Assembly: GCA_021234155.1 (NCBI GenBank)
Contig: JAJEKV010000046.1
Span: 5,151,012-5,215,011 of the forward strand
DNA length: 64,000 bases
Direction: 5' to 3'
Origin: Isoetes taiwanensis
Taxonomy: Eukaryota; Streptophyta; Lycopodiopsida; Isoetales; Isoetaceae
A program made the position numbers and the translations under genes. Under the pieces are notes generated by a model that saw nothing but the letters and a program-made list of their open reading frames with translations, searched no databases and was not told where the DNA came from. Shown here piece by piece: positions 3,031 through 43,360 of this stretch; the first letter of the stretch is position 1; each line of letters starts with the position of its first letter.

Positions 3031-3110
3031 TGGATTTGCTATGTCTCCCTCGGGGATAGCAATGTGACAAAGAGCAAGAATGCGGAAGAAAAGCCCGATA
3101 GCTTCGGGAT
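3031..3110. repeat. 80-bp direct repeat, copy 1 (copy 2 at 4794-4870)
   Basis: The segment starting atggatttgctatgtctccc inside the decayed flippase gene recurs about 1.76 kb away at 4794-4870 in the same orientation, with a few substitutions. Downstream of copy 2 the text 'gatagcttctggaagaatctggaag' type wording repeats on itself, suggesting local slippage. Confidence 0.7.
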
Positions 3111-4379
3111 CTTTTCATTTCTCCAATTTCCTTTCATTAACCGTTCATCATAAAATTGAACCCAATAATTTTTTCTTCGCTATTTCTAGATGGCAACACC
3201 ACATGTGTTTGTGTTTGATCTACTTCAGTTTCTTGATGGATACTAAAGACATCCCAGTAGGCTCACACCACATGTGCTCTTTCCACCTCTGTAAAACCCA
3301 TACCATAAGATGCCTCTCGAGATTGTGCGCGGACGAAAAGTCCATCTAGGTTACTTGTGAGTGTGCCGTCTTATCAAATTAAAATTGTGTCTACTTGACC
3401 TAGTTCTTCATTTAATTTAACTTTGGTGGCATGTTTGTTTCTTCATCATACATGAGAAGGCCTTGTGCAATAAAATGCACCTTGTATAACACCGCACAAT
3501 CTCTAATGTCACATATAGTGAAATAGGGATCGAGATATCCATATAACACAACCACAGCAGCAATATCTGTGAAGGCCCTAATGAATACTACGTATTTTGA
3601 AAAACATGCTATATTCCCAAAAACATGCTCTGAATTTGAAGACTAGGGTCCCGTAGCAATATCTGTGGAGGCCCCAATGAATACGTTTGTCCATTTTGAA
3701 ATTCCAAAACGCCTGTATAGGTATACAATGAAGCATTTGAAGCTTCATATTTTACAAACGCCTCAAAATCCTTAAAATCATCTAGCATTGCTAAGTTCAA
3801 GCGTATATTCGAGACCTGCCTATCATTTCGCAAAAGAAAAGTTACAACATATATGCCTTCTTCTCTCCTCAAAATGTAGCTTAAAAAATAAATTCTTTAA
3901 TGCGTTACAGAGGCTAGTTGTATCACAAATGGCAAGGACTAATGAGCCTCTAGAGACACCCACACAACTGAAACTACATACTAAATTGAACTGGAAAATA
4001 GTCTATATTGTTATATAAATGTAAAAAAAATGAAAAAGTGCTCTAGATATTGTTACAGTATGTCACCTTTAAGTTTGTTTTGCCATCAAGGTTCTTAGTT
4101 TCAACATAACAGACTCCATCAGCACCATTGGAAGACAGAATAAGAATATCTGCTGGAAAATATTCTTTGTTTTTTATCTGCACTGTGTCTCCTACACAGA
4201 CATCCTTCCATAACTTTTCCTCACATTTACCTCTAGAACAAATTACAAGTGATCTCAAGTTTATCTCTTTATGACCTTGGGCACGGCATAAGTCTTCCCA
4301 TAGCTCCCGTGCCATTCCCAACAAAATAAGCGGCAATATAACAATGAATTGGCCTATATGGGCTGATTGGCATTAATAA

Positions 4380-7109: not shown

Positions 7110-7927
7110 ATAGCCACTCGTCATATTTACATCTATTTGCAGCATTTAACCTGAAGTACTCCAAAAGCTAATTTGAAACATATATGCACATGGTCATTCA
7201 TGCTGATAAAAACAGAAAACAATCCATAGCACTTGGACATAGATTGGAGACAATGATACAATGTGCTAGACATGTATTATTGTATTCATTTGAGTGCACT
7301 AAAAAGGATAGTTATATCTGGATGTAATGCTCCTTTTGCATATTGTGAAAATACCCAAAGCATTGCTATGCTACGCATATCCCTCGATCAATGCACAACA
7401 CCATCAAATAAAAACCACCGATGGAACCCACGCCATGCCAGTGAAGAAGACTAAAATTGAAGGTGTAAGTTGGTTGAAAGTGACCACATGAGCTTCTGCA
7501 TGTCTAGGATTAGCATTACAAGTTTCTGGAAGGGTGCTAATTCACTCAATGCCTTTGTTTTCCGATGTAAGACAAGAAAGGAAGGAATTTCAATACCATT
7601 AAATGCTAAGATTGTGATGAGAAGCCATATTGTCTGTTTTGCAAGGAAAAATATAAGTGAAACATTTACTGGAATGCTGCAAAAGGTACTCAAAGGCCAA
7701 CTCTGTCTTCCCATTAGAGCAACAATGAAGGAGCAAGATGATGCTACGGAGACAAAGCAGAAACATGGTATTAGCTAGCAAACAATACAGAACATACCTT
7801 AATTTCTTGTACAGATTGAGACATTTCAATCTCACTGGAATGCTGCAAGATAACTCACAGGACAACTTTGTCTTTTCATTAGAACAGTAATGAAGGAACA
7901 AGATGATGCCATGGAGACAAGGCAAAA
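7110..7927. other. Host flank with degenerate tandem repeats of about 170 bp
   Basis: No gene is assigned. A segment with tggaatgctgcaa...aacaatgaagga...gatgatgc...ggagacaa is found at about 7672-7765 and again at about 7838-7925. A related piece with aacaata(c/t)agaacatac lies at about 7780-7800 and at about 15695-15715, on the far side of the LINE insertion. Short open segments on the minus strand (7451-7714) have a hydrophobic stretch but no family that I recognise. Confidence 0.45.
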
Positions 7928-7942
7928 ACATATTACCTAGAA
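7928..7942 (+). repeat. Target-site duplication, left copy, of the outer LINE
   Basis: The 15-mer acatattacctagaa is present here and again at 15604-15618, exactly bracketing the LINE body and its A-rich tail. Confidence 0.85.
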
Positions 7943-7981
7943 TTTTTTAAAAGATATTGTGAATGGACGTCAGTAAGCATT

Positions 7982-8710
7982 ATGGAGGCCTACAAAGATT
8001 TGTGTACTTCACATCAATTTGATAGGATTTTGAATACGGGTTTGATTTCTCTTATTCCTAAAGTGAAAGAACCTGTGAGCATTCATGATTGGCGCCCAAT
8101 AACTCTTCTATCTACTATCTATAAAATTATTGCAAAAGCCTATGCAGAAAGACTTAAACAGGTTTTGGGATTGAGAATAGATGCGGCTCAGTCAGGCTTT
8201 CTTCCAGGTCGGCAAATTTTTCATAATATAGTGGCAGCATATGAAGGAGTTCATTGGGCCCAATGTTCAGGTCAAAATCTTCTATATTTAAAATTGGATT
8301 TTGCTAAAGCTTATGATAGTGTGAAGTGGACTTTCTTGGATGCCATGCTTTTGAAATTGGGATTTGAGTCTGGTTTCCGATCTATGATGCAAAAAATGTT
8401 GATTTCTGCTAAGGGGGTAGTACTGTATCATGGAGAACCATTGGTGCTTTTTCCAATCGAACGTGGAATAAGGCAAGGTTGCCCTTTAGCTCCTTTTTTG
8501 TTTACTATAGTGGCAGAAGGACTTTCGCAACTATTGCATGAGGCTGAAAAGGATGGTTTGGTAAAGGGATTATTATTGGAGGAAGGTGAACAGGTTTTGG
8601 TTAATCAGTTTGCAGACGATACCTTCTTGCTAGTGGATGGTGAAGAGAATAATGTGCAGATAATCAAAAAGATTTTGGATATATTTTCAATTGCATCTGG
8701 ATGTCTCCTT
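7982..8710 (+). pseudogene. LINE ORF2 reverse transcriptase, N-terminal part
   Basis: Reverse-transcriptase motifs are in order: SLIPKV and DWRPITLL near the start, AQSGFLPGRQI, the catalytic LDFAKAYDSVKW, GIRQGCPLAPFLF, and QFADD at about 8609-8620 (FADD in place of the usual YADD). The frame is open until the nested insertion after codon ctt at 8708-8710. Joining directly to 13953 continues the same frame (NWAKCSALWV), which fixes the insertion point. The function when intact would be target-primed reverse transcription of the LINE RNA. Confidence 0.92.
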
Positions 8711-8854
8711 TCCAACATCTACCTGACATTGCCATAGCCCAACCAACTGCCTCTTGGCCTTGCCTAGCCAGGCCACGACCCGCCCGCGACACGCCTAGCC
8801 CTACCAGACACGATAAGCCCCACGCCATAGCCTACCTAAAACCCCTGTTTGACC

Positions 8855-13952: not shown

Positions 13953-15558
13953 AATTGGGCTAAGTGTAGTGCTTTATGGGTAGGGAAGGAAGCAGTTCTG
14001 CATTTTTTATATGAGTATGCCTGGAAGGTTGTTGTACCATCTGCAAAGACAAAGCTTCTAGGAGTCCCCTTTGGTTTAGATATTGACATGAATGAAGCAT
14101 GGGATGAAATTATCTTAAATTTACAAAGGCAACTGATTTGGTGGAGAGGTTCAAAGTTATCCTTGGCAGGTAGAATTCAAGTAGCTAAGTCAGTATTGAA
14201 CAATACGCATATTTATTTGGTTTCGGTTCTATTGGCTCCAGCTTCTAAGTTTGCGAGATAAAAAATTTGTAAGAGATTTTGTCCGTGTACCCGATCAAGG
14301 AGGCACTGTGAAGGTGGCGTGGAAGAAATGTATGTTGTTTAAACAACAAGGAGGACTTGGTATGTTGGATCTTTCTTTACAGGGTAAGGTCTTAGCTTCT
14401 AAGCTATTGTTCAGTTTGTTGAAAGATGATTGTGCATCACCAGGTATGAAGTTACTTAAACAATCAGTAAAGAAGTGTATGGTTTTTCATAAGCGAGGTG
14501 TGAGAATTGAGCTCCCTTGGGCATTGTTATATCCATTGAAAGCTTCTTCACATGCCTCTCCAGTACTGAAAGGCTTGCTTCAGGCCTGGAAGGTAGTCCA
14601 GCAGGTGATTACATTTGATTGGGAAGCTTGTCTTCAGGCATCTTCCCCTTTTCTGTGGTTGCCTTTGTATACTCATGGACAACTACACCCAGTTGTAGAA
14701 TTTATGCATGCGCATTCCCAAGCGAGGTGGAGGAGAGCAGGTATTATTGCTATTGAACAGTGGTATTTTGGTATTGACATTGCTCCTTGGCAATGGTTTC
14801 AGAAAACATATGGGTTGTTGGATAAAGATATCAGTATATGGGCTTATGTAGCAAGTGCTCTTCCTCTAATTAAGAAGGTGGGTAACAAGAGATGCTGGAA
14901 CTTTGTTCAAGGTATTAAAGAAGGCAAGAAGCTAGTAAGTTCATGCTACAGATTGCTTACCTCCTCAAATACTTTATCACCTTCTCGAAAATGGCACTTA
15001 CAGACTTTGCCTTCTCAATGGCAATCCATCTGGAACCTTATTTGGTCTAAATATAATCCTCCAAAGGTAAATGTTCTACTTTGGCAGGTGATTCATCGCT
15101 CTTTGAGAGTTAATGAGATGGTTCATCGCTCTAAGCCGGTAGTAAGCCCACTTTGCCCAATGTGTGAGCGGTGCATTGAAACATTGGAGCACTGTTTATA
15201 TTTGTGTGCAGAGCTGAGTAGTCTTAGGTCCTGGCTGCATTCTCTTTTTGGAGTATCTTTGGATAGTCAGCACTTTCTTTTGGGTATTTATCCAAATCAG
15301 TGGACTGCTTCTAAAAGGATTGCATTTCACATGGCAAAGTCTTGGCTAATATGGAGTGTATGGAAGCGAAGGCGAAGAAAGGTCTTTTATGATAAGCGCA
15401 TTTCTTCTCAGGTAGTGCTTCAAGAAATTCGTAAGAAGTTGTATAATTGCTTTCAGATCTCCAATTGGCCTGATCGTATTAAAATTCCAATATGGAGTGA
15501 TCATCTAAAAGTGATTGATGCTTCAGGGACATTTCTTACTTCTGGAAGTACTTTGTAA
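13953..15558 (+). pseudogene. LINE ORF2, C-terminal part with zf-RVT domain
   Basis: Resuming at 13953, the frame encodes the RT thumb (NWAKCSALWVGKEA, GVPFGLDID, RQLIWWRGSKLSLAGRIQVAKSVL) up to a stop at 14259-14261. A one-base frame change then opens the next stretch to 15558, with GGLGMLDLSLQGK and the zinc-ribbon-like zf-RVT motif (CPMC...LEHCLYLC) at about 15160-15210. This is the normal C-terminal layout of plant L1 ORF2. The frameshift at about 14250 inactivates it. Confidence 0.88.
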
Positions 15559-38111: not shown

Positions 38112-39575
38112 TTAAATGCTTAATTGTACTTGAATCAGAAATGATCTATGAGATTCAACCTTTTTAAGATAACATCCTAGAGTTTTTGGATCCATATTCA
38201 GGAGGCTATGAAAATTATGAAAACAGATGCCAAAGGAATCTCTAATTTCTGCATATGCTGTGCATGTTAAGAACACATGCTCCTCATCCTCGATATCTCC
38301 ATCTGTGCATACCGAACAAACCCGGTTATCTCTTGGGATACCTGCCCATCTGCCCGTCTCTATGTGGAGCTTATGGGAACCTGTGCGGTATCGTGCAATG
38401 GTCTGCTTCAGGTGTAGTGGAAGCCTGGCCCGAAGGTATGCTTGGTCCGAATACACAATCATCGGATTTATCTCCTTCATGTAATATATCATCTTAGTGC
38501 CAGGTTCTTCCCAAATTCGCTTCAATGCTAGTGATTGCACCAAGTCTCATACACCAATTTCGGAGTCAGGCCAATCCATTCTACTTATACCCCAACTTGC
38601 AGCCCAGTCCAACGCATCCTTATACCAGCCCGCAGTCATGGAAGCTTCCATTGCCTTTCTGGGAATTCGATCGTCATCCAAAGTAAATAATCTGTTCACA
38701 AACGTGATGATCTGGATCAGTGCTTCCGCCTCAAGTGATAGTAAACCCGCTTCTGCCAGCATAATAGGATATGGGGTTTGCTGCTTAATACCAAACTCCT
38801 CTTGCAAGAATAGCTTCTGGATACTCTCAACCTGCTTCCATAATCCTTTAGACAGAGCTGGTCCCCAGATTGGAGCACCATATAGGATTACTGTTGGGAC
38901 CAGAGTTTTGAAGAGTAATCTCCTCAACCCCCAATCTTGTAATGATGCCTTACGACATCGCCGGAGCATTCCGTATAAGGCTGTTTTTCCTCCTGCTATT
39001 CGCTTCTTAATGCATTCTTTCCACTTATAATTTGAGCTGAAATCTAGGCCAAGGTATTTATAATTACTCACAGTTTCCAATGCTTCTCCATTGTACGTGA
39101 AGTGTGGTTTGTTTGTGGTGCCACACACCATGATCTTGGATTTAGACAAATTCACTTTCATTTTCTTAGCCATGCAGAACTCGCTCAAGGTTTGTAGGTG
39201 TCTCTGGAGGCATGCTGGGGTGTCTGCCAGTAGCACTACGTCGTCAGCGTAGAGTAGCAGTTGGATCACGTAATCCCCTAGCTGAGTTCCCACAGTCCCC
39301 TCTTTCTCCATCCATGATTGCAGCTCATCTATGTATAACCCAAAAAGGGTGGGTGATAACGGACAGCCCTGTCTCACCCCTATTGTGCTTTGGACTTCAC
39401 AGTCAAATTATCTGCTAATCGTGCTATAACTTCTTTATACAGGTATGAGAGTGATCGGGACCCCAATCTCCTTCATTCTATTTCCCAGCCCATCTCTTGG
39501 TACTGTATCGAAGGCTTTGGAGAAATCAATGAATGCAAGAAATATATGTTCTAGGTAATCTTCATTAGGAGGACA
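38112..39575 (-). pseudogene. 5'-truncated LINE: RT and C-terminal zinc domain
   Basis: On the minus strand RT begins abruptly with FIDFSKAFDTVPRDGLG at about 39490-39545. A few stops follow, then a 276-codon open frame (39377-38547) with RQGCPLSPTLFGLYIDELQ, LLLYADDVVLLAD (YADD box), MKVNLSKSKIMVCG, YKYLGLDFS and VILYGAPIWGPALS. A last segment (38543-38112) carries RYRTGSHKLHIETGRW and the Cys-rich CSVCTDGDIEDEEHVFLTC. It is the best-preserved copy here of the lineage that also gave the nested LINE and the intron fragments. The missing 5' half is usual for LINE insertions. It lies about 250 bp upstream of IFT81. Confidence 0.9.
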
Positions 39576-40030: not shown

Positions 40031-40559
40031 AGTAATTTAACATGTTTATTATGCAAATATAATCCTAAATTATTGAGCTTATTTGATAAGTTTATCCATA
40101 ATATATATTGTATGTTACGTAAACCACAAGCACCCCTCTCCTGCCGAAGCGATGCTTGTCCTTCCTCTAATCCTATCTTGAAGAATTATTTATTTGTTGG
40201 TAATTTCTTGGTCTACCTACTCTAAGTGGTGCCGCTCAAATATCAAGTGAGTGCAATTATTTACAGTTACACAATCATCTACAGTCATTTTAACACAATT
40301 ATTTGACACAAGTTTACACAATTAATTTAACACAAACAGTTCATATTGAAGAGTTTAAACTCATTACATTGAGAACATTTAATATCAAATCATGTTTCTT
40401 TTGCTGAATTGACAAAAAGGAATCTATTTGCATAAAAGTTTCTTGCTTCAGCAAGCTTAAACAAAAGGATAAAAAAAAACTGGCTGTTTACATTAAAAAA
40501 GAACATGGTTTCTATCAACTACCATTATCCTTCATGCTTTCACTATCTGCAGACAAAAC

Positions 40560-41211
40560 GAAAGTGCAACCATTGAACGTTGCTCCCACAAATGATTGCC
40601 CATCTGCATAACCAAACATTAAGTTAATTTTCATATCAAACAAACCTACTTATCAAATTAGTCATAAAAATAACTTACCATAGTTTTGCACAAAAGTTTG
40701 TGCTCCAGGAAAGTATTTCGCTGCGAAGGAGTACTTTTAATCATTGTCGTTATCGAAATCATTGACCAACTCATAATTTGGTACAAAACTGGGATGACAG
40801 AAGAGTTGTTTGCTGAAACTTGAATCACACTATTATTGGCGCCATTCTTCAAATCAGTAGCAACTTTACGATGATCATCAATTTGAGCAGGAACATCTGC
40901 AATCAATAAACATTTAAAAACAAAATAGTAAAGAAATCTAAGAATTACCTGCAATCGTAGTATCATCGCGAACAGGAAGGTTTAACAAACTAGAATTACC
41001 AGTAAAAACGTTATCTGCAAAAAAACCTACTCAAAACTAGCTACTAAACCTACTCAAAATGAACTAGGAAAATCAAATAGAAAACTATTCGAAATTAATA
41101 AGAAATTACCTGCAACTGAAGTCTGACTGTAAACAGGAACCTTTGACGAATGGTTTCCCACTAAGTTCTTTTCCTTCTCTTTAATCATTTCATTCAACAC
41201 ATTAGGATACA
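40560..41211 (-). other. Downstream tail of the recombinase locus
   Basis: Short minus-strand open blocks separated by introns or stops (LNEMIKEKEKNLVGNHSSK near 41190-41140, DVPAQIDDHRKVATDLKNGANNSVIQ near 40890-40820) could be C-terminal exons of the same protein, with acceptor-like (t/g)cag before several of them. The blocks have Ser/Asn-rich composition and no domain. Confidence 0.3.
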
Positions 41212-42426
41212 ATTTTAGTGCCATCGTCATTATATGGTTTACTCAATATACTCCTTGCCGCATTTACTTGAATTTCATTGCTCCGGTCATACCTAGTAGA
41301 AAGCACATTAGTAGTTACATGAAAGGAAATACAAAAATAAATAAGTCTTATGCCCTGTTATAAGTCTTCCAATCTCTGGTGGAACTAGAGCAAATGACAT
41401 TCTAGTAACATCAGACACACATCCACTTTTGTTACAAATATCAACGTCTAACAAAGACCCCATATACTTTAACCATTTGGTAATATTGTTCTTGCCTACC
41501 CTTGATTTCTGCAACCAGAGTTGATAGATAGTAAACAATTAAAAACAAACTAGTAAACAACAAATAAGCAAAAGATAAATCAAGAGTACCTGACCACGAA
41601 AGTTTGAGATTGCTTGGCAGAAAAACCATTTTGGTTCAGATTTTCCCTTTGCATGTAAATGACGGTATACTGCTTATATGTTAGTACAAAATCATTCTCA
41701 AAGCTCCATATCACGGGCCTGAAATGGCTATCATCAAAGCAAGTTATAGAACTCTCCCATGTCTTACTATTTCTCTCATTATACAGCAAATATTCATGGC
41801 TGCCATCAAAAGCCAAATCCAAGTCCACATCCTTGACATCATAAAGCTCCTGAGCACCTCTGATTGCAAATCTAGTAACCACGTGAAAGTAAAGTTTCTT
41901 CAAAATCCCTTTCAGATGTATGATCTAATAGTCCATATCAGCCAATAGGTCATGCTCGGTACTATAAGAAATTGCTTGTGCTTTTTTCTTTTTCGTACCA
42001 ATACCTAAAGCTCTAGCTTTTGATGCCATATGAACAAATGCCGACCTAGCAGAACCAAAAAGATCGTCTTTCAAAATGTTAAATTTTGGCTCCCTTTCAC
42101 CAGTAGCATTAAGTCTTGCTTCTTGTTTTTTCCTGATAATTCTTTCTATTGACTTCAATAAGCAATGAAGACTAAAACAGAAAACAATCAATTAGAAACA
42201 ACCAAGAAATAGAAGATTCTCATCCTTGAATTAGCCTGAAGTTTGTCCCATTTGTTCTTCAACTGCCTCAATTCCACCAAACCTGGCACTATGAAGGTCA
42301 ATCTTTTTAAAATTTCCTTCTATTGTGAATTGGAAAGATTGATATTACCATTGTTATGGGCCTTGACTTCCATGATATGGCTCAATAATGCACTGATGGC
42401 ATTATCCGACCATTTCAAAGGTGATT
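41212..42426 (-). pseudogene. Myb/SANT-like domain plus Crypton/DUF3504-like tyrosine recombinase, degenerate
   Basis: Exon 1-like block (42426-42236): SPLKWSDNAISALLSHI to LRQLKNKWDKLQ, a Myb/SANT-like domain, with one TAG at 42320-42322. Block 2 (42191-about 41590): basic N-terminal core (RKKQEARLNATGEREPKFN, ASKARALGIG), one TAG at 41925-41927 in the same frame, then VTRFAIRGAQELYDVKDVDL (box I arginine) and EYLLYNERNSKTW. Block 3 (41508-41333): VGKNNITKW, NKSGCVSDVTRMS and RLITGHKT. Block 4 (41292-41212): LYDRSNEIQVNAARSIL, supplying the candidate nucleophile Tyr, joined by a putative 40-nt intron. This order matches tyrosine recombinases of the Crypton/DUF3504 type. The box II His and Arg appear replaced by Lys and Cys. 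Block joins are tentative. No reverse transcriptase is nearby, which argues against DIRS. Confidence 0.68.
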
Positions 42427-43036
42427 TTCACTTTGCTTTTGGCACCATTGTGTCGGAATTTGGATCCATATATAACTATCAATGCTTGGAATTTTCCACA
42501 AGAAACAGAATTTTGATTTACATGCCCTGCTTCAAAGTTTGTCCTTCTAGCACAAACTGTTGTGGAATAATGATCTGCTTCCAATTCTCTTTGGCTCATT
42601 TTGAATAGCAAGTGCTTGAATTACAGGGCAGAAATTGATCCGATCATTTTCTTTGGTTTTCTTGGTTGAAATTCCTTCTCACGCCGAACAAAGGTCTTCG
42701 AATGATCCGAAGCCCTTATCATATTATCTGAGAGTCTAGAATTTAGAAGATAATCAAGAATGAAGATAATCAAGTTTCTGCCATGAAGTCCCCATTCCAT
42801 TTTCCGAAATAAAAAAACTGAATTATGCAAAAAAGTGAGACAAGAATGTAAAAATTTGAAGCTCAGCAATACTGCCAGAATACAGGGAATTGCGAGAAGG
42901 CCAAAATACGAGGCAAAAAACATTCCGGCAGGGGTTAAGCTTAACTGGCATAACCCGATGGGAAACGACCCATCCTCACGGGCAATAAAAGGTGAGAGTA
43001 GTTTTTTTCCACTCTCACCTACCTCTCGCACCTCTC

Positions 43037-43360
43037 CCAGGGATAGGTTCTGTACGTACGAAATTATTTTTCTAGACGTATAAAGTCTAAAAATACGTAT
43101 TTTTAGGTTAAATACGTATTTTTCGTATTTTTAACCTGCCGGCCGGAAAAAAAAAATTTACGCGAAAATAATTTCGTGTAAGCGAAAGCTTGAGTTTCGC
43201 GTCGCGAACTCTTTCCAGGTTTCGCGTAAATGAAACCTACAGGTTCGCTTACGCGAAACTTTTTTTAGTTCGCGTAAGCGGTTTTATGAAGGATTTTCGC
43301 GTAAGCGAAACAGTAGTTTTCGCTTACGCGAAATTTTTTTAATATATATAGAGGCGCTGT
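43037..43360. repeat. Cluster of CGTAAGCG palindromes with a shared leader
   Basis: From about 43150 to 43335 the motif ttcgcgtaagcgaa or its complement ttcgcttacgcgaa, with variants, recurs at least seven times in both orientations, so the segment can fold into many alternative stems. It is preceded by gggataggttctgtacgt and aaatacgtattttt words that recur, reversed, at 51264-51281 and about 52503. It is followed by atatatatagaggcgctg, a TATA-like site. No coding. Confidence 0.75.

Follow-up and report, generated by a model that had tools for sequence, protein, structure and literature searches.

Among described mobile elements, the closest counterparts of the locus analyzed here are the Cryptons. 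In the available sections of three papers, Cryptons are described as lacking terminal inverted repeats (PMC3212892, PMC3627910, PMC12134995). According to the accessible text of the first of these, they often carry terminal direct repeats of 4–6 bp, one published CryptonI family has terminal repeats of neither kind, and a mariner-Crypton composite has been published under the name MarCry-1_FO (PMC3212892). The hosts of CryptonA, CryptonI, CryptonF, and CryptonS given in Table 1 and section 5 of this survey by Kojima and Jurka (2011) are exclusively fungi, animals, and stramenopiles, and its accessible text mentions a green alga with a DUF3504 gene in the mitochondrion (PMC3212892). The available portion of a paper on plant genomes refers to Cryptons only in a general description (PMC11630846). 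Our search of the open-access literature for Cryptons from land plants (ferns, lycophytes, Selaginella, Isoetes) returned none.

Two other groups of eukaryotic proteins are relevant. The animal DUF3504 genes are, in the accessible text of the same survey, conserved and devoid of most catalytic residues (PMC3212892). The captain of the Starships (DUF3435) is a DNA-moving tyrosine recombinase, and the available sections of the source describe inverted repeats in some cases (PMC12134995).

We analyzed a stretch of 64,000 nt from the genome of Isoetes taiwanensis (hereafter the window), in which an initial annotation had placed a Crypton/DUF3504-like tyrosine recombinase fused to a Myb/SANT-like domain at 41212..42426. 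The feature is very probably a defunct copy, truncated at the 5' end, of a DNA transposon family that is present in many copies and whose single recognizable gene encodes a Crypton-like (DUF3504-type) tyrosine recombinase.

The recombinase copy and its neighbors in the window

The transposon copy, decayed and 5'-truncated, spans 40118..42214 on the minus strand. In all 29 sibling loci found elsewhere in the genome, alignment to the window is confined to positions at or below 42214, with nine loci beginning exactly there, and the copy ends in a 3' terminus of the sibling type. The initial annotation had drawn the feature too short, as the element runs to 40118 and the tail exons and 3' terminus had been overlooked. 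In tblastn comparisons, positions 42173-40518 (minus strand) correspond to exons 2, 3, 4, 6, and 7 of the sibling L007, with E values for the best segments ranging from 3e-94 (exon 2) to 3e-7 (exon 6). These matches bear out the recombinase motifs that had been read by eye: the box I segment, EYLLYNERNSKTW, VGKNNITKW, GHKT, and a candidate nucleophile tyrosine (in the window, RYDRSNEIQ) follow one another in this order on the minus strand.

Exon 2 (41590..42173, minus strand) carries the box I arginine of IRGAQE and the lysine of NSKT. It matches exon 2 of L007 at 81% over 178 aa (E 3e-94), with a second segment in another frame (72% over 25 aa), and contains one frame change and one in-frame stop, a TAG inside the best stretch of the genome search. 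Additional frameshifts near 42131, 41928, and 41888 were considered and rejected, as comparison with the siblings supports one in-frame stop and no frameshift at those positions. Exon 3 (41344..41520, minus strand) includes VGKNNITKW, the box II region NKSGC, and GHKT; it lacks its 3' end and splice donor and matches L007 at 78% over 59 of 65 aa (E 2e-30), a comparison also made by eye. Box II is indeed altered, as had been noted: the window has a cysteine in place of the arginine present in 27 of the 29 siblings. Exon 4 (41111..41291, minus strand) provides the candidate nucleophile (YDRSNEIQ) and the region after it, and its two matches to L007 (80% over 25 aa, 76% over 37 aa) lie in different frames, with a frame change inside the exon. 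The C-terminal tail exons 6 and 7 (40518..40894, minus strand) match at 39% over 74 aa and 71% over 28 aa, the last containing a GATFNxCTF motif. In L007 (oriented positions 3098-3184) and homologues, the last exon shows the conserved motif GATFNNCTF. The conserved 3' terminus GTGGTTTACG is located at 40118..40127 (minus strand) and is the sole match in the window, where 0.03 would be expected by chance.

As the core-binding exon and one of the catalytic arginines have been lost and the reading frame is broken, the window copy is judged to be dead and would be unable to transpose. A profile search against DUF3504 and integrase models, which the initial annotation had proposed as a check, yielded no Pfam match with the window pieces, whether separate or joined. 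Assignment of the window copy as a recombinase hence rests on its siblings. Scanning the window for tRNAs and Rfam families gave 0 and 0 matches.

The sequence directly upstream has a different origin. A SANT-like domain had been reported here, and a fragment of one does exist at 42469-42236 (minus strand); it contains two stops, scores 13.3 and 13.5 bits, below the Pfam cut-offs, and is not part of the recombinase. It is included in a fragment (42217..43036, minus strand) of a separate high-copy SANT-gene family outside the recombinase element, with blastn identities of 77–83% in the longest segments to the loci L036-L040. At least 150 matches to this family, the window's own included, were scored among 828 candidates in the genome. 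SANT homology with the window stops at 42217 in all five SANT relatives and sibling homology starts at 42214, meaning that two high-copy families abut with their homologies meeting within 3 nt (breakpoint 42214..42217). On these alignments, the SANT sequence is assigned to another repeat family, joined to the transposon at 42214-42217 by insertion or deletion.

If genuine, the SANT-recombinase fusion protein originally proposed would be a transposase of a new architecture. In its favor, the SANT-like piece shares the strand of the recombinase and is located immediately upstream of it, and the unaltered frames of two SANT relatives exceed the Myb_DNA-bind_4 cut-off of 27 bits (L040 33.3 bits, L039 27.8 bits). 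However, the SANT piece was detected in none of the 29 siblings with flanks of about 1.5 kb, apart from one chance-level match in L033 (E 2.0), and 27 of them have a core-binding exon instead. Likewise, tblastn detected recombinase exons in none of the five SANT relatives (L036-L040). Together with the position of the breakpoint, these results make a fusion very improbable. A gene model in which the SANT piece is spliced to the recombinase through a supposed intron at 42235-42172 was rejected by comparison with the siblings. Upstream of the SANT fragment, short palindromes based on TTTCGCGTAAGCGAAA are clustered at 43158-43340 of the window.

Downstream of the transposon copy lies a reverse transcriptase remnant (38112..39407, minus strand), contrary to the earlier statement that none was nearby. 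It gives an RVT_1 match of 65.5 bits at 39407-38547, on the same strand as the recombinase and beyond the 3' end at 40118, and a zf-RVT match of 15.4 bits that falls below the cut-off. From these two domains, the remnant is probably of LINE type. Elsewhere in the window, the frames 7907-8737 (plus strand) and 14200-15558 (plus strand) resemble, by eye, the N- and C-terminal portions of a single LINE polyprotein, and the approximately 5.5 kb between them is GC-rich (52–58% in 2-kb steps).

Sibling loci and the recombinase gene

The search covered a genome of 1,658,258,908 bases in 1110 contigs. With the joined window recombinase as query, at least 185 matches were obtained at E <= 0.001, a lower bound given that 143 of 1909 first-look candidates were scored. 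Nine close loci (L006-L014) match at 72–78% identity, and seven of them have no stop in the matched stretch. In a tree of 33 sequences, the window copy groups with L006-L014 and L023 with a support of 0.97.

The connection to DUF3504 was made through a more distant locus. A search of the genome with the Pfam DUF3504 model did not pick up the window family and led to two further loci, L001 and L002. The spliced model of L002, with GT-AG introns, scores 31.2 bits against DUF3504 (cut-off 29.7) and 25.3 bits against Phage_integrase, just under the cut-off of 27.1. As the window-type sibling L027 matches L002 (E 8e-28, 26% over 355 aa), the window family is connected to DUF3504 indirectly, by way of L002. 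The proposal that a land plant harbors a DUF3504/Crypton-like tyrosine recombinase is thereby supported by way of the siblings. Direct profile matches are weaker: spliced L007 reaches 16.0 bits with DUF3504, its core-binding exon matches the QRICH1 profile weakly at 15.0 bits, below the cut-off, and spliced L027 reaches 13.9 bits with DUF3504 (cut-off 29.7 for both loci). Single exon frames of L007 gave no recombinase profile match. The sole PDB profile match was to a XerC-like recombinase (E 0.71). Two AlphaFold2 models were poor (pLDDT 49.9 and 43.8), and one Foldseek fold search returned nothing at E <= 0.001. Searches for relatives confirmed 0 of 283 pattern matches in viral_contigs and found 0 of 51 in genome_contigs.

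The candidate catalytic residues are largely retained in the siblings. Among the 29 loci, RI is kept in 28, the beta-Lys in 29, the KxxR lysine in 28, RII in 27, the histidine in 27, and the tyrosine in 26. Seven of the nine misses reflect the absence of an aligned residue; the other two are a glycine at RI (L022) and a histidine at RII (L033). We take the roles of the R-K-KxxR-H-Y positions to be those familiar from tyrosine recombinases in general. The R-H-R-Y set by which Cryptons are recognized is present in the siblings with a lysine instead of the first histidine, and the window copy is without RII.

Across 30 loci including the window, the median dN/dS of exon 2 is 0.19 for the 88 pairs with dS between 0.05 and 1 (range 0–0.75) and 0.10 for the 60 pairs with dS of 1 or more; 287 of the 435 pairs were left out as too close or saturated. 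Judged by these ratios, exon 2 is under purifying selection across these loci. The core-binding exon 1 is present in 27 of the 29 siblings, being partial in L018 and missing from L013 and L033, and is absent from the window. Predicted gene models contain six or seven exons, and exon 5 of L007 is without a canonical splice acceptor.

Some further features of the genome were recorded in passing. The recombinase gene of L002 sits in a 2.48-kb inverted duplication that is 89% identical (L003, C606:38000-47900). A divergent recombinase copy, L044 (C1018:23754400-23758400), does not contain the exon 2/3 intron present in L007. Matches to the C-terminal LEAFY domain comprise two high-scoring loci (185 and 181 bits) and shorter ones on other contigs, several of which have stops; none of 14 control genomes gave a match. 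In a published abstract, LEAFY is assigned to algae and land plants.

Element ends and insertion sites

Three elements, L006, L007, and L011, extend from GTATTTGG to GTGGTTTACG over 3330-3394 bp and contain one recognizable gene. The 3' terminus is common to eight of the ten close copies, the remaining two being L012 and L023, in which the 3' end was not reached. A similar 3' end occurs in L015, L016, L018, L019, L024, and L033, and no such end was seen within the stretch examined of L020, L021, L025, L028, and L030. An inverted repeat of 28 bp is found at both sides in six close copies (L006-L011); an inverted repeat of the 3' end is also found near the 5' end in L012 and L023, and L013 and L014 showed none at their 5' side. 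In the distant copy L019, 24 of 24 bases are matched, compared with a control maximum of 16, and nothing above control was detected in L015, L016, L018, L024, and L033. Taken in either role, the 28-bp terminal pattern has 84 matches in the genome at up to three mismatches, compared with none for the backward control.

On the left, the cut site (GTA) is separated from the inverted repeat by a region of 53-140 nt that is predicted to fold into a hairpin. Its left start was located in 13 of the 16 loci tried, with L078, L079, and L081 representing one flanking locus and the start in L019 being a guess. In most folded copies, the stem starts 3 nt away from the cut and reaches the border of the inverted repeat. 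Pairing begins at nt 4 in ten copies, at nt 5 in one, and at nt 11 in L019; the stem of L080 has been lost. Relative to shuffled sequences, the hairpins of three copies have z values of -9.6, -3.0, and -3.6. As the stem spans from the vicinity of the cut to the edge of the repeat, folding would bring the cut site beside the repeat, mirroring the right end. Seven short MITE-like copies (L078-L084) were also recovered; the five that were compared with the autonomous copies L006, L010, and L012 have just the two ends in common with them.

Insertion does not duplicate the target. The initial annotation had suggested looking for short direct repeats at copy boundaries; exact direct repeats beside the ends measure 0-2 nt in all ten insertions, none reaching 4-6 bp. 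Two empty sites are informative. L068 matches the joined flanks of L011 at 94% across the junction and L075 those of L007 at 82%, each with one extra G. Other flank matches are less clear-cut: L077 (84%) has one extra A at the junction rather than G. The joined flanks of L006 are spanned by L058 and L059 at 75–76% and by L060 at 70%, with L061 ending 3 nt past the junction. In the case of L010, the match to L066 covers the junction at 71%, with gaps there, and those to L064 and L065 start only 4-5 nt ahead of it.

These ends, together with a scan of the full-length elements, allow three other readings to be weighed. The scan covered every frame of L007 with at least 60 aa (16 in total) and two frames each in L006 and L011, with other siblings inspected by eye. 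In line with the expectation that intact relatives would carry neither a reverse transcriptase nor a DDE transposase, none of the 16 frames of L007 matched such a family, and one chance-level match was returned (Gp38_N, 14.2 bits, below the cut-off).

Cryptons do not usually have inverted repeats, whose presence here could point to another transposase. The recombinase would then be a passenger in an element moved by, for example, a DDE enzyme, as in MarCry-1_FO, and the MITE-like derivatives as well as the inverted repeats are typical of DDE transposons. Insertion without target-site duplication, the lack of a DDE family in the scanned frames of L007, and purifying selection on the recombinase argue against such an arrangement, which we regard as improbable.

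DIRS elements also combine a tyrosine recombinase with inverted repeats. A DIRS or Ngaro remnant that has lost its reverse transcriptase would share both features with the family, and a reverse transcriptase does lie downstream in the window. It is situated beyond the 3' terminus at 40118, however, and L007 contains no reverse transcriptase family despite being full-length with both ends. Furthermore, introns are present in the gene, which would not be expected of a recent reverse transcript. A retrotransposon origin is accordingly most unlikely.

The initial annotation had left open whether the locus was a DNA transposon lineage or a decayed domesticated gene. A host gene family expanded by duplication would be compatible with a multi-exon gene under purifying selection. 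Such a family would not explain the precise insertions with matching empty sites, the common termini, or the short derivatives, and many copies contain stops. A decayed domesticated gene is extremely unlikely given the many copies with common ends and precise insertions, and the first of the two options, in the form of a decayed transposon copy, is favored.

Proposed mechanism and relationship to known systems

By sequence, the siblings have an exon-intron gene with a candidate catalytic set, and their ends are defined; they are inserted precisely and without duplicating the target, and the family includes short derivatives. A Crypton-like transposon of this type might operate as follows. The recombinase would bind the inverted repeats and the left hairpin, and cutting would be performed by the tyrosine of the YDRS motif. 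The element would be excised as double-stranded DNA, probably as a circle, and then joined to a new site, with which it would share about one base. Short derivatives would be moved in trans by the same enzyme. We infer the action of the recombinase on the ends and the circular intermediate from the proposal made for Cryptons in the available sections of the survey (PMC3212892).

The left end invites comparison with hairpin-dependent systems. At the attC sites of integrons, a tyrosine-type enzyme uses a DNA hairpin. The tyrosine-type enzymes of IS200/IS605 also use DNA hairpins at their sites, according to the accessible text of one source (PMC3627910). Both systems are prokaryotic, and the left-end hairpin of Isoetes is a predicted fold. 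It is conceivable, though rather unlikely, that the family constitutes a distinct class of eukaryotic tyrosine-recombinase transposons in which the left end is recognized as a folded hairpin. If true, this would be a eukaryotic parallel to the hairpin-reading recombination of integrons. In the accessible parts of the open-access literature, we found no description of an end combining an inverted repeat with a hairpin for Cryptons.

Starships differ in being large fungal elements with cargo, and their recombinase is very distant from that of Cryptons. The animal DUF3504 genes (ZMYM2/3/4, QRICH1, KCTD1, KIAA1958) encode a related domain; in contrast to these genes, the Isoetes siblings mostly keep their catalytic residues.

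The strongest resemblance is to Cryptons themselves. Shared features include a tyrosine-recombinase gene, a probable relationship of the DUF3504 type, the lack of a reverse transcriptase, and the lack of target-site duplication; some Crypton families also have non-autonomous derivatives. A large and partly well-preserved lineage of tyrosine-recombinase DNA transposons would be placed in a lycophyte, where the accessible text of the survey lists none (PMC3212892). The clear ends, empty sites, and non-autonomous offspring of the family open the mostly inferred mechanism of Crypton integration to direct testing. The Isoetes elements differ from Cryptons in their 28-bp inverted repeats, left-end hairpin, about one shared base, and KxxR in place of HxxR. 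As Cryptons are described as being without inverted repeats, we name the family Crypton-like rather than a member in every respect.
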